Source: Rhodopirellula islandica (lineage in GTDB: Bacteria > Planctomycetota > Planctomycetia > Pirellulales > Pirellulaceae). Taken from it: a DNA stretch of 64,000 nt. The position numbers were made by a program, and so were the translations under genes. The stretch spans positions 1-64,000 of the forward strand of contig NZ_LECT01000017.1 of the NCBI RefSeq assembly GCF_001027925.1. Direction: 5' to 3'. Shown here one piece after another: positions 51,448 to 55,382 of the stretch; positions within the stretch are counted from its first letter, which is position 1, and each line of letters starts with the position of its first letter. Under the pieces are notes generated by a model. It saw nothing but the letters and a program-made list of their open reading frames with translations, did not search any database and was not told the DNA's origin.

Positions 51448-52914
51448 ATGAGACGAACTTTGTGCTGCTTGCTTGGCTGTTGGCTGCTCGGTTGTTGCTC
51501 CTTCGCCACTGCCGAAGATTTCTTCCTCACAATCGGGGGCGGGTACTCGCCCTCGGGCAATCAAGCCTCGCTAGAAAACAACGTGCTGTTCTCGCAGCGC
51601 GCCTTGAGTGAGCAAGGGGTGCTCGGCGAGCACAACGACATCTACTTTTCAGATGGGGATGCGGTCGGAAAGGACCTTCAAGTGATGGATCCGAACTCGG
51701 TTCCGAAAGCCAATCGCTTGATGGCCGAGTTCTTCGGCAATCGCGATTCTCTGGGGCTGTCCTATCGCAACCACAGTGTTCCCAACGTGAAGGGCAGCAC
51801 CGAACCCAAAAACATTCGCAATTGGTTTCGAGACGTGGGCGAAACGATGCAATCAGGAGATCGGTTGTATGTTTACGTCACCGCCCATGGAAGCCGAAGC
51901 AGCGATCGCCAATCGCCCTATGACACCACGATCGCAACCTGGAACAACAGCTCCATTCGAATGAAGGAGTTCGTTGAGATGTTGGATGGTCTGCCAAAGG
52001 GAGTGGATGTCGTTGCGATCATGGTCCAGTGCCATGCGGGCGGGTTCGCGAGATTTATTTTCGATGAAGGCGATCCCGACCAAGGCCTTTCTCAACAAAA
52101 CCGAATTGGCTTCTTCGCCACCGTGCACGATCGCCCCGCATCGGGCTGCACCCCGGAGGTGGACGAAGCCAGCTACGTCGAATACAGCACCTACTTTTGG
52201 GCGGCACTCTCAGGTCGAAACCGTTCCGGACGCTTGATTGAACGTCCGGACTACAACGGCGATGGTGTTGTTTCATTTGATGAAGCCCATGCATACACGG
52301 TGATCACCGCCGACACGATCGATTTGCCCGTGATGAGTTCGGGCGAGTTCCTGAGCATCCACAGCCATTTCGACGAAGACAATCCGGACCTACTGCGAAA
52401 CGATGAGTCCTACGCGTTGATCCTGGATCTGGCGACTCCCTCCCAACGTGCGATGCTGGAAGGTTTGTCCGATCAATTGAATCTTTCCGGTGATGAACGC
52501 ATCAATGAAGCCTGGAAGACGACCCAATCCGATCGAGACCGGAATTCGAATCGCCGCCGCCGACGCTCCTCCCCGGAGGATGGCCTGCGACGTCAGATCA
52601 CACGTGACTTGGAACGCAAATGGCCGGAACTGGCCAACGTCCTCAACCCAGTTGCCATCGAACTGCTGACCAGTCGCCAAGACGAGTTTGTCGAAGTGGT
52701 GGAGAACCATCCCGACTACCCGCGTTTTCGCGAACTAACCGATGCCCGCGAATCCGATGAAGCCAAAACGAAAGTGAAGTACGAACGATTCGTTCGGATC
52801 GCTGACAATGTCGCGTTGGGGGAGAACCTCCGGCGTCTCGGTGACGAACGGCTTGTCGCGCAATACGAGGCCATCGTGGCTGGAGAAGCCGGTACGCTGA
52901 AGTCATCCAATTGA
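51448..52914 (+). CDS. exported caspase/legumain-like (clan CD) cysteine protease with an EF-hand
   Basis: A 488-residue protein with a lipoprotein-like leader (LLGCWLLGCCSFATA). A clan CD dyad is visible: His147 in YVYVTAHGS and Cys195 in IMVQCHAGGF, spacing and surrounding hydrophobic strands fitting C13 (legumain)/caspase-like folds. An EF-hand, D268-Y-N-G-D-G-V-V-S-F-D-E279, lies soon after and may make the enzyme Ca2+-dependent. A basic, Arg-rich stretch (about 365-375) and a helical C-terminus follow. The stop overlaps the convergent PEP-CTERM gene by 12 bases. Substrate unknown. Confidence 0.78.
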   Translation: MRRTLCCLLGCWLLGCCSFATAEDFFLTIGGGYSPSGNQASLENNVLFSQRALSEQGVLGEHNDIYFSDGDAVGKDLQVMDPNSVPKANRLMAEFFGNRDSLGLSYRNHSVPNVKGSTEPKNIRNWFRDVGETMQSGDRLYVYVTAHGSRSSDRQSPYDTTIATWNNSSIRMKEFVEMLDGLPKGVDVVAIMVQCHAGGFARFIFDEGDPDQGLSQQNRIGFFATVHDRPASGCTPEVDEASYVEYSTYFWAALSGRNRSGRLIERPDYNGDGVVSFDEAHAYTVITADTIDLPVMSSGEFLSIHSHFDEDNPDLLRNDESYALILDLATPSQRAMLEGLSDQLNLSGDERINEAWKTTQSDRDRNSNRRRRRSSPEDGLRRQITRDLERKWPELANVLNPVAIELLTSRQDEFVEVVENHPDYPRFRELTDARESDEAKTKVKYERFVRIADNVALGENLRRLGDERLVAQYEAIVAGEAGTLKSSN

Positions 52915-53907
52915 ATTCGCCCCAACGTTCCCTGGCATTTCACGATTGTCGAGACCGTGTTTTTGGCGACGTCGTCGTTGCCAAGCCACCCCCAACCCCA
53001 CGCAGGCTATCCACGCCAGTGACCCCGGTTCAGGAACCGCGGTCACAGTCGCAAAGTTATCCAGTGCAAAGTAACCCGGCGTGTTCATGCCGTAGGGTCC
53101 CACGTCGCTGGAAGACAAATTGAAATGCAAGCTTGTGGCTTCGGACAGAGAAGACAAATCGACGGTCCGCCACTCATCCAGGATGTAGTCCTCCAGTGAG
53201 TCAGTGAAGCGAAAGTCCGCAAGGAACACGTCGATGCTGGTGTCCAGGATTTGGTCGTTCGCATCAATTCCAAAAATGGACAGTTTGAGAAAGTCGGGAT
53301 CTGTTCCCGACACTCCACCAAACGGTTTCGCAAAGGAATCGCCGTCACGCATCGAAAGTGCTGCGTACGTCGTGTTGCTCACATCCAAGCGGATCGCCTG
53401 CTCCCCATCGGGCAGATAAATGCTTGGCAGGGCGGTCAACGTGTTGATGTTGGTTGGAGTCGAGTTGGCATAGCCAAAGGCCACTGCGTAGTTGCTGGAA
53501 CCGTCTGATCCCGCCCCCGGGTAAGCACTGAATTCATTGGTGTAGCCCTCTGTGGTGGTGTCGGTGTGATTGGAAACGGCAAACCCGCTCCAACTGCCGT
53601 ACAGATCATTGTGGCGGTTGGAAAAGTCCACTCCATCAGCGGAAAAGACTCCGATGTGGTCATTCCCTCCATAGGTGCCCGGTACGACGGAGGCATTGTT
53701 GACAGGCCCATTGAACACGCCTGATGCCCCCAGAGTTTGGTTCTCGAAACCAACCACCACATCGGCCTGAATGACGCTGCCTCGCAAACTCGAGAGACAA
53801 ACCAAAGCCAGCAGCACCCACCGAGGCAGTGCCAGTGAATGGTCCTGTAGCGGATCGCGTGAAGAAACGGTGACCCAACAAAAACGGCATGGGCGAGAAG
53901 AAGACAT
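52903..53907 (-). CDS. secreted DUF4465 protein with PEP-CTERM sorting signal
   Basis: A 334-residue protein: a signal region (ALPRWVLLALVCLSSLRGSVIQA, about 26-48), a DUF4465 domain (SWSGFAVSNHTDTTTEGYTNEFSAYPGAGSDGSSNYAVAFGY) and a PEP-CTERM segment VPEPGSLAWIACVGLGVAWQRRRRQ starting near 291. The tail continues about 19 residues past the Arg cluster, longer than usual. Start 53907 or 53934. A cobalamin riboswitch lies about 260 bases upstream. From memory, DUF4465 includes B12-binding surface proteins (BtuH) of Bacteroidetes, so a B12-related role is inferred. Confidence 0.83.
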   Translation of the reverse strand: MSSSRPCRFCWVTVSSRDPLQDHSLALPRWVLLALVCLSSLRGSVIQADVVVGFENQTLGASGVFNGPVNNASVVPGTYGGNDHIGVFSADGVDFSNRHNDLYGSWSGFAVSNHTDTTTEGYTNEFSAYPGAGSDGSSNYAVAFGYANSTPTNINTLTALPSIYLPDGEQAIRLDVSNTTYAALSMRDGDSFAKPFGGVSGTDPDFLKLSIFGIDANDQILDTSIDVFLADFRFTDSLEDYILDEWRTVDLSSLSEATSLHFNLSSSDVGPYGMNTPGYFALDNFATVTAVPEPGSLAWIACVGLGVAWQRRRRQKHGLDNREMPGNVGANSIG

Positions 53908-54170
53908 GATGACAATTCCAAATGCACTTTGCATTGAATCTTCTGTTGTCGGCGCATATTTCCCCTGATGACTTCCAGCTTGTTCGCGAAAATTGCGAGC
54001 CAAGTGCGAGAAGTTCAATCCATGGAGACGCTGCGACGAAAACTCGATTCAATTGCTGAAGACGGAAACCCAACACATGAACCGCCGCAACCTCGATCAA
54101 AGCATGGCAACATTGGTTTCATACGTTGCAACGTTTGCCTCAATCCAAGAAGGCACCCAAACGTCTTGCG

Positions 54171-54390
54171 CGAGGTAGGTCTTCTGACTCACCACCCGTT
54201 TGTTCACTCACTGCCTTCTCATTCACGTATCACGTCACGACGCAAAAACGAGAACAATGGCTGAATAGAAAAAGTGAACAATGAGATCGACTTCCGAAGA
54301 TCTCTGGTGGCACACAGCGGCCGGACCGTCCCGGAATTTCACCGGAGTTCCCTGTTCACTGATTGGGTTGAAACCCAATCAGTCACCTCG
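54171..54390 (-). promoter_or_regulatory. cobalamin (B12) riboswitch
   Basis: On the minus strand P1 pairs CGAGGT (54390-54385) with ACCTCG (54176-54171). The core reads GAACAGGGAACTCCGGTGAA, then ATTCCGGGACGG and CCGCTGT, matching the GGGAA...GGTGxAAxTCC...CxGCCACTGT consensus with a few changes. The B12 box AGTCAGAAGACCTACC is at 54189-54174. It lies upstream of the DUF4465 PEP-CTERM gene and probably lowers its expression when B12 is plentiful; whether by RBS sequestration or termination cannot be seen. Confidence 0.9.
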
Positions 54391-54601
54391 AACGCCGGCG
54401 ATTCTAGCCACGGTCGATCTCCTGTCAACACATTTCGAAACGCTTTGAGTTGCCAGAGAAAACGGAGGTCAAGCGGCTCTACTTTACCCTTCCTCCAGAG
54501 GACGCAGGCCGCACTGGGCCAGGGAGGGGGACGCGCTGCATCCGATGTTCGTCCCCCCGCTTCGCTCAGCTCTGGCGGCAGGAAGGCAACAACAAGCACG
54601 T

Positions 54602-54745: not shown

Positions 54746-54997
54746 ATGCCGTATCTGCTTGAGTTCACCGAAGCGGATCTGGACCGACCGTTGACCGAAC
54801 CCGAGAAGATGGCGGAGACGGTTCGGGAAATGTTTGACGGGAAGACGCCGGTTCGGACGAAGGATGTGGCGGATCGTTTGTCGCGGATCTACGGAACGGT
54901 GAAAACGCATTTGCATCGGGCAGGGAAACTCGGACTGCTGCTCCATGTTCCCCGTCGGGGTTGGCTAATGCCAGAGACCGACCACGCCAACGGATAG
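54746..54997 (+). CDS. small helix-turn-helix protein
   Basis: An 83-residue soluble protein (MPYLLEFTEADLDRPLTEPEKMAETVREMFDGKTPVRTKDVADRLSRIYGTVKTHLHRAGKLGLLLHVPRRGW). The middle, TPVRTKDVADRLSRIYGTVKTHLHRAGKLGLL, fits a winged-helix or HTH DNA-binding fold. It starts 16 bases past repeat R2 and is the first gene of the accessory island. Possibly a transcriptional regulator of the island or a fragment of a replication initiator; no named family recognised. Confidence 0.6.
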   Translation: MPYLLEFTEADLDRPLTEPEKMAETVREMFDGKTPVRTKDVADRLSRIYGTVKTHLHRAGKLGLLLHVPRRGWLMPETDHANG

Positions 54998-55028
54998 GCT
55001 CCGAAAGTTCTGAATAGATTCAAAAAGC

Positions 55029-55382
55029 ATGTCGAACGCGAACACCGCGTCTTCCCCAAACAACGCCATGAGGCATTTGTCCGCCGTCGCCAAGGACGAC
55101 GGGAGCGAAGATGGCGATGACGGAAGTATCGATCTCCCCGAGCGCGTAGCCGACACCTGGGCGGCCGTGCTGATCGACGTGCATGAAAACACAAAGATCG
55201 ACTCTGGCGTAGATGCGGAGAAGGAGTCGGTGCAAGACGATGACGGACATCCCGAAGCCGAGGTTGCGGCCGAAGATACCGCTCGGCAGTTGATGGAGTC
55301 ACGAAATCGGCGACTGTCCAATTCGAGCGGAACGGAAACCTCAACTAAAGAATCCGACAATAAACATCAGTCTTCGTTGTAG
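55029..55382 (+). CDS. hypothetical acidic protein (doubtful)
   Basis: A 117-residue frame, acidic and low in hydrophobics (MSNANTASSPNNAMRHLSAVAKDDGSEDGDDGS...). Codon third positions look gene-like (GC-rich), but there is no recognisable domain, and a long frame also exists on the other strand over the same bases. It follows the HTH gene at 31 bases. Kept at low confidence as a possible gene. Confidence 0.35.
   Translation: MSNANTASSPNNAMRHLSAVAKDDGSEDGDDGSIDLPERVADTWAAVLIDVHENTKIDSGVDAEKESVQDDDGHPEAEVAAEDTARQLMESRNRRLSNSSGTETSTKESDNKHQSSL

Follow-up and report, generated by a model that had tools for sequence, protein, structure and literature searches.

The locus and the question it raises

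What is a single gene for an apparently exported protein doing behind a cobalamin riboswitch in a planctomycete? The question is raised by a locus of Rhodopirellula islandica that lies in a stretch of 64,000 nucleotides (contig NZ_LECT01000017.1, positions 1 to 64,000), called the window below. The best explanation, which we consider probable, is a one-gene vitamin B12 capture unit that joins three predicted steps: an off-switch, B12 binding and sorting of the product by its C-terminus. Computed for this unit and described below are an aptamer, a promoter-like site, a DUF4465 domain with conserved B12 contacts, a conserved tail, an exosortase gene in the same genome, and coupling of riboswitch and gene in related genomes.

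The unit would work as follows. When B12 is scarce, the leader RNA would permit expression of the DUF4465 gene; when B12 is plentiful, the aptamer would be bound and the gene turned off. A signal peptide would take the product through the inner membrane, and an exosortase would recognize, and presumably cleave, the C-terminal VPEP tail. The product would end up on the outer surface or beyond it. There its DUF4465 jellyroll would bind cobalamin as BtuJ does in Bacteroides, and the vitamin would be handed over into the cell. The parts are collected in Table 1.

Table 1. Positions of the unit's parts in the window, and of the second cobalamin riboswitch of the same genome
Feature	Position	Strand	Remarks
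Predicted sigma-70-type promoter, TTGACA-16-TAGAAT	54401..54428	minus	at the 5' edge of the aptamer
Cobalamin riboswitch aptamer (RF00174)	54157..54405	minus	Rfam match; compensatory changes in the hairpin after P1
P1-closed core	54171..54390	minus	P1 54390-54385 with 54176-54171; B12 box about 54190-54174
Leader, 249 nt	53908..54156	minus	between aptamer and start codon; no terminator-like site
DUF4465 (BtuJ-like) gene, 334 residues	52903..53907	minus	single-gene unit
N-terminal hydrophobic helix, residues 26-41, probable signal peptide	53785..53832	minus	AlphaFold model and sequence
DUF4465 domain, residues 103-285	53053..53601	minus	PF14717
PEP-CTERM-like sorting tail, as matched by Pfam	52972..53040	minus	VPEP, hydrophobic helix, Arg cluster
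Second cobalamin riboswitch	contig C31:202996-203240		whole locus C31:202996-210309

Aptamer, promoter and leader

A first-pass annotation of the window had proposed a B12 riboswitch closed by a P1 helix, and both proposals are confirmed. In an Rfam scan of the 64 kb window, the sole match above the gathering score is RF00174 (Cobalamin), which covers the full length of the model (positions 1-189) on the minus strand at 54405-54157, with 65.8 bits against a cut-off of 31.5 (E 5e-14). The P1 strands are CGAGGT (54390-54385) and ACCTCG (54176-54171). Promoter-like site, aptamer, leader and gene are all on the minus strand. The promoter-like site agrees with the consensus at 11 of 12 bases, and shuffles of the region hold a mean of 0.2 such sites.

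The leader can be compared among five sequences, namely the window and four genomes of the same genus (G442, G443, G444 and G452). P1 is identical in all five and so gives no covariation. The hairpin after P1 (alignment A1, columns 48-73) has three pairs with two-sided compensatory changes, in a set of only five sequences, and 1 of its 55 cells is non-standard. The 570-column consensus fold of the leaders deviates in places from the Rfam aptamer pairing and was used for the hairpin only.

The long stretch between aptamer and gene bears on an alternative, in which the riboswitch senses B12 but is an on-switch, or in which control has been lost and expression is constitutive or otherwise set. 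No terminator-like site lies between the aptamer and the start codon of the window gene; the one such site in the region is inside the gene, and shuffles average 1.4. A hairpin just after the aptamer (54165-54130) pairs in the five-sequence consensus and, folded alone, is modestly more stable than shuffles (z -1.63; z -1.23 in the orthologue L085), and within a longer piece it folds like them (z 0.06), as does the leader piece 54060-54175 (z -0.47). Also in keeping with this alternative, all five leaders have an ATG (53957, minus strand) 50 nt upstream of the DUF4465 start and out of frame with it, preceded by a ribosome-site-like GGGGA or GAGGA whose sequence and spacing are kept. The upstream ATG is possibly the start of a leader peptide or a means of translation control. 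A second gene starting there was considered and rejected, because the frames that it opens differ in length among the five leaders (173, 173, 45, 43 and 31 codons). The off-switch is an assumption on our part, because neither a terminator nor any other expression platform could be found. Against the alternative, both promoter hexamers are unchanged in the five aligned sequences, as are long stretches of the aptamer and most of its core, and off-switching is the rule in the cobalamin riboswitch family. We judge on-switching or lost control to be unlikely, and the off-switch remains the preferred reading.

The gene and its PEP-CTERM-like tail

The open frame holding the gene was scanned from 54018. 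The ATG at 53907, where the feature described in the first-pass annotation begins, is taken as the start because it is the only start codon of the frame that is conserved in the five leaders; the stop is at 52903. The gene runs toward a convergent frame of 488 residues (51448-52914, no Pfam match) and overlaps it by 12 bases, so that only this gene is served by the riboswitch. In the four genomes that supplied leaders, the gene is present as well and has the two downstream neighbors that it has here. Upstream of the unit, two small frames occupy window positions 54746-55382; the first (83 residues) has only sub-threshold Pfam matches, and the second is 117 residues long.

The first-pass annotation had also read a PEP-CTERM sorting tail in the product, and this holds in a slightly weaker form. 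As read from the sequence and the structural model, the protein has a probable signal peptide and, near its other end, VPEP at residue 291, a hydrophobic helix and a basic end (RRRR), with 20 further residues beyond. Because the PF07589 (PEP-CTERM) score of 17.8 bits is below the cut-off of 20.7, we call the tail PEP-CTERM-like rather than filing the protein as a member. No lipobox was found by eye at the signal peptide; the nearest candidate, LALVC, has Val before the Cys.

The tail can be followed through related proteins with a simple pattern (P-E/Q/T-P, a hydrophobic stretch and a basic end), which was written after some of the sequences had been read. It is found in 45 of 47 fetched planctomycete frames with one DUF4465 domain, in 44 of them with the letters PEP; in L052, IPTP replaces PEP. 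The two others are L142, which is a fragment from a masked multi-domain gene, and L090, which is truly without a tail; counted over the 46 listed one-domain loci, the exceptions are L090 and the IPTP of L052. PEP is invariant in 29 aligned proteins, a subset of the 47, and the V before it is kept in at least 90%. With a slightly wider pattern, 29 of the 32 complete frames shorter than 900 residues from named planctomycete loci pass, and two of the three failures (L187 and L222) still show VPEP. None of the 11 multi-domain proteins that were fetched, out of 39 listed, has the tail. It appears in some loci with other labels, such as Aquabacterium L163, Verrucomicrobiota L165 and Myxococcota L219, and the same pattern finds none in Bacteroidetes-labelled DUF4465 loci. 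An exosortase gene is present in all 12 genomes searched; in the window genome it scores 262.9 bits with TIGR02602 (cut-off 105.55) and 164.7 with the exosortase U C-terminal model (cut-off 40).

The sub-cut-off PF07589 score and the 20 residues beyond the basic cluster would suit a different view of this C-terminus, as a stretch that anchors the protein in a membrane or a hydrophobic end arisen by chance, with the protein kept in the inner membrane or periplasm. The invariant PEP, the recurrence of the tail in nearly all one-domain frames and the exosortase in every genome searched argue against it, and we give it only a small chance; the tail is better taken as a probable exosortase signal.

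A partly similar protein is ZepA of Anabaena, a PEP-CTERM exoprotein serving zinc supply, which is likewise an exported nutrient-handling protein with a signal peptide and a PEP-CTERM tail and is more abundant when its nutrient runs short (PMC10957091). ZepA, however, involves zinc and Zur, whereas the window unit would involve B12 and a riboswitch.

A BtuJ-like domain with conserved B12 contacts

The DUF4465 assignment made at first pass is secure, with 189.6 bits for PF14717 against a cut-off of 25 (E 8e-56). In a Foldseek search of the PDB with the AlphaFold model (pLDDT 87.6), the first nine matches are DUF4465 chains, which gives the protein a predicted augmented beta-jellyroll fold; carbohydrate-binding modules are among the matches that follow. 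The nearest solved structure is 9HMU, a B12 complex, both by sequence (E 7.7e-24) and by fold (Foldseek E 1.4e-19, 32% identity), and BtuJ1 is next in both cases (E 1.5e-18 by sequence).

The equation of DUF4465 with BtuH in the first-pass annotation is wrong. The DUF4465 proteins of B. theta are BtuJ1 and BtuJ2 (PMC12751083, PMC13398666), and BtuH is a different protein, whose C-terminal B12 domain was described as having no known structural homologs (PMC8941943). The BtuH B12 domain (7BIZ) is absent from the seven sequence matches of the window protein at E<=1, and no BtuH chain is among the best 50 of its 393 Foldseek matches; an identification of the window protein as BtuH was accordingly rejected. 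BtuH and the H-domain of BtuG1 in B. theta are also surface B12-binding proteins of B12-riboswitch loci, but the BtuH domain is a separate one.

Binding of B12 by the DUF4465 family is already known. A paper published in 2026 describes eight distantly related DUF4465 proteins, with identities of roughly 15-50%, as B12 binders; all six of the members newly taken forward bound B12, and one of these is planctomycetal, the protein ‘Pan’ of Mucisphaera calidilacus (PMC13398666). The conserved hydrogen-bonding residues of BtuJ1 are given as Tyr146, Asn241, Thr242 and Tyr245 (PMC12751083; in its text, two Asn numbers stand in the order opposite to the rest). These contacts, a Tyr in the DE loop and Asn-Thr...Tyr in the HI loop, are conserved between BtuJ1 and BtuJ2. 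They correspond to Y181, N275, T276 and Y279 of the window protein, so that all four are kept; in the 29 aligned planctomycete proteins, Y181, T276 and Y279 are invariant and N275 is present in at least 90%. The window protein very probably binds vitamin B12, and with the four contacts kept and binding by the family published (PMC13398666), B12 scavenging, as suggested at first pass, is its likely role.

The window protein thus shares with BtuJ1, BtuJ2 and other DUF4465 proteins (IPR027828, PF14717) the domain, the four contacts and the predicted fold, and its gene is riboswitch-linked like those of BtuJ1 and BtuJ2 in B. theta (PMC12751083, PMC13398666). It differs in having a PEP-CTERM-like tail where BtuJ has a lipid anchor, and its gene stands alone, with no B12 transporter gene adjoining; nor did the genome yield a TonB plug, or a BtuC-type permease above cut-off.

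Coupling of riboswitch and DUF4465 in other genomes

The first-pass annotation had proposed surveying planctomycetes for riboswitch-DUF4465 pairs, and the pair does recur. Across the phylum, RF00174 is found in 255 of 294 genomes and PF14717 in 7; in the family of the window organism, PF14717 is found in 123 of 241 genomes, including 13 rows of its own genus. The loci used here are the 85 that were listed, 46 with one DUF4465 domain and 39 with two to five. They come from 75 genomes, of which 69 are among the 123 family genomes with PF14717 and six are others that were positive in the survey of the phylum. All 46 one-domain loci and 11 of the 39 multi-domain loci were fetched; a further one of the 85, G450:C90, was read for the riboswitch only and is counted after an Rfam scan of its fetched stretch. 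A cobalamin riboswitch upstream, defined as on the same strand and less than 5 kb away, is present in 83 of the 85, and the two remaining loci begin 226 and 243 bases into their contigs. The 75 genomes hold 121 listed riboswitches, about 1.6 per genome; at that density, with 6.5 Mb per genome assumed, about 0.05 of the 85 loci would be expected to have one by chance. Coupling in planctomycetes is near-universal among the listed loci.

Among the 48 named planctomycete loci, 20 were scanned with Rfam and the riboswitch is present in 18 of these; L162 and L167, which do not show it, are at contig starts, with 0.6 and 1.2 kb of sequence before the match. Named loci with other labels (three of them ‘uncultured bacterium’) have it in 23 of 30 cases. 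No riboswitch was found upstream in L155, L159, L189, L194, L199, L208 and L221; in L159 and L199 the upstream sequence is shorter than 0.5 kb.

Two further arrangements were noted. At L164:1162-2842, labelled Deltaproteobacteria, two cobalamin riboswitches and a c-di-GMP riboswitch precede one DUF4465 gene. At L049:11508-13799, in another planctomycete, MetE (cobalamin-independent methionine synthase, by NCBIfam) follows, at a distance of 2.8 kb, a riboswitch that belongs to a tailed DUF4465 gene.

The open-access literature searched (most subscription papers being outside this scope) yielded no report of PEP-CTERM-like tails on DUF4465 proteins, nor of coupling between DUF4465 and cobalamin riboswitches in planctomycetes, and the words PEP-CTERM and Planctomyc are absent from the main text of PMC13398666. 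The tails and the near-universal coupling are what the present analysis adds to that literature.

In a further alternative, the protein is under B12 regulation and belongs to the surface or matrix, its DUF4465 domain binds something else (another corrinoid, a heme-like molecule or a sugar), and the riboswitch only reports B12 status. This could accommodate the low identities within the family (PMC13398666) and the carbohydrate-binding modules that come next in Foldseek, jellyrolls often being sugar binders, but is improbable in view of the four kept contacts, the binding of B12 by every newly studied member (PMC13398666) and the coupling itself.

B12 need and entry in the window genome

The capture unit would serve an organism with a use for the vitamin. 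The window genome has MetH (1952 bits against a cut-off of 1497). Another frame, which includes a B12-binding domain, is similar to radical SAM enzymes, at scores below the cut-offs of those models. Entry of B12 was approached with TonB plug and FecCD models; a divergent BtuB or an importer of another type would escape this search. The TonB plug model has no match in the window genome, the controls (E. coli, Caulobacter and Bacteroides) being positive. No FecCD/BtuC-type permease there exceeds the cut-off: both FecCD matches are below it, and the one scanned further (L229) resembles zinc-type permeases, itself below the cut-offs of those models. Bound B12 thus has no known route inward, as neither a TonB plug nor a FecCD permease above cut-off was found, and this counts against the best explanation. 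The four genomes with an orthologue of the window gene have no TonB plug match either, and they match FecCD weakly and in part, with two matches in G443 barely passing (28.4 and 27.4 against 26.5). Another genome of the genus, G446, encodes both a plug protein and a complete FecCD permease, and its three DUF4465 matches are all in one multi-domain gene.

In Stieleria tagensis TO1_6, growth was promoted by B12 and thiamine (PMC10541342); its genome has a riboswitch, a pilin-like frame and a tailed DUF4465 gene (L148).

The second riboswitch and a BtuH-like domain

Both cobalamin riboswitches of the window genome lead into DUF4465 genes. The second does so by way of a DUF1559 pseudopilin gene (224.4 bits; L008:1388-2203), which is apparently co-transcribed with the gene that follows. 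The latter encodes a protein of 2041 residues with a planctomycete extracellular motif (24.3 bits, against a cut-off of 25.5), a domain that begins with GPYAPAA and is called by these letters here, and three DUF4465 domains. It further has a Calx-beta match slightly below cut-off and a dockerin (57.1 bits). Elsewhere in the genus and the family, too, there are genes for which two to five DUF4465 domains are listed.

No Pfam family was found for the GPYAPAA domain (L008:2325-2990). In several genomes it also forms a gene of its own next to DUF4465, and loci from several phyla have it adjoining DUF4465 or fused to it (alignments A3 and A4). Domains of this type are in the fetched flanks of 30 of 48 planctomycete and 14 of 30 other named DUF4465 loci; the 16 loci checked that are of the window type or similar to it have none. 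For its predicted model (pLDDT 83.6), the first two Foldseek matches in the PDB are BtuG1 (E 6.3e-5) and BtuH2 (E 7.9e-4). The superposition is poor (TM-score 0.44; rmsd 12.5 with BtuG1 and 10.5 with BtuH2), and galactose oxidase and discoidin/CBM32 domains are close behind in the same list, from E 1.2e-3. Profiles built from 10 and then 27 relatives each find one PDB sequence at E<=10, that of BtuG1 (residues 373-473, E 2e-4, then 372-476, E 2.3e-5), and both miss BtuH2 (7BIZ). BtuG1 has a C-terminal extension of about 250 residues that is homologous to BtuH2 (PMC10404256). The GPYAPAA domain is apparently a distant relative of the BtuH domain, so that a relative of the BtuH/BtuG1 H-domain seems to be present in the other riboswitch locus of the window genome; that it binds B12 is a guess.

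Other sequences were tried. L214, Bacteroidetes-labelled and beside DUF4465, was rejected as a sequence bridge to BtuH, its PDB search giving only sorting-domain or unrelated matches, and the single H-like proteins from L047 and L087 have no PDB match at E<=1.

Other cobalamin riboswitch loci

Six riboswitch loci of the window's own genus that are not tied to DUF4465 were fetched, and five of them (L096, L097, L099, L100 and L101) lead into a frame like the alpha subunit of class I ribonucleotide reductase, confirmed by NCBIfam in L096 (1383.6 bits) and recognized by look in the rest; four of the five have a beta-like frame after it. Class I ribonucleotide reductase is a B12-independent alternative. 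In the sixth, L098, the riboswitch is followed by a DUF1559 pseudopilin and cobQ (621.9 bits against a cut-off of 273), and further frames beyond look like cobalamin salvage genes.

In several loci, DUF1559 or prepilin-type genes come first behind cobalamin riboswitches, before DUF4465 or cobQ; examples are L008:1388-2203 and L098:6334-7410 (by Pfam) and L090:3830-4627 and L092:5126-6286 (by look). In G057, from another class, the order is riboswitch, tailed DUF4465, BtuH-like gene, pilin-like gene, ABC binding protein, ATPase-like frame and FecCD permease. The binding protein scores 106.8 bits with IsdE and 104.6 with BtuF, both below cut-off, and is above cut-off for the TroA-like model; the permease scores 281 bits with FecCD, and its best NCBIfam model is BtuC, below cut-off.

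What the capture unit would mean

A broader picture, which we offer as doubtful, is that Rhodopirellula and its relatives use an exported B12 capture layer rather than the route of Bacteroides or E. coli. Both riboswitches would then make extracellular binders, a single tailed BtuJ-like protein and the 2041-residue protein with one BtuH-like and three BtuJ-like domains, and import, neither BtuB nor BtuCD having been found, would take an unrecognized route, perhaps linked to the pilus-like fiber that the pseudopilin suggests. An exported B12-capture set without a recognized importer is the part that would surprise, if true, and it leaves a testable puzzle: how B12 enters an organism that has MetH, two capture genes predicted to be under B12 control and no recognized B12 importer. 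The GPYAPAA domain would add possible relatives of the BtuH domain outside Bacteroidetes, where the 2022 description of BtuH gives no structural homolog (PMC8941943). PEP-CTERM sorting, for its part, would gain a nutrient whose capture can be assayed. BtuJ-type B12 scavenging would reach from the lipoproteins of gut Bacteroidetes to widespread exosortase-type-tagged proteins of environmental bacteria, planctomycetes above all, and also to loci labelled betaproteobacterial, verrucomicrobial and myxococcal.
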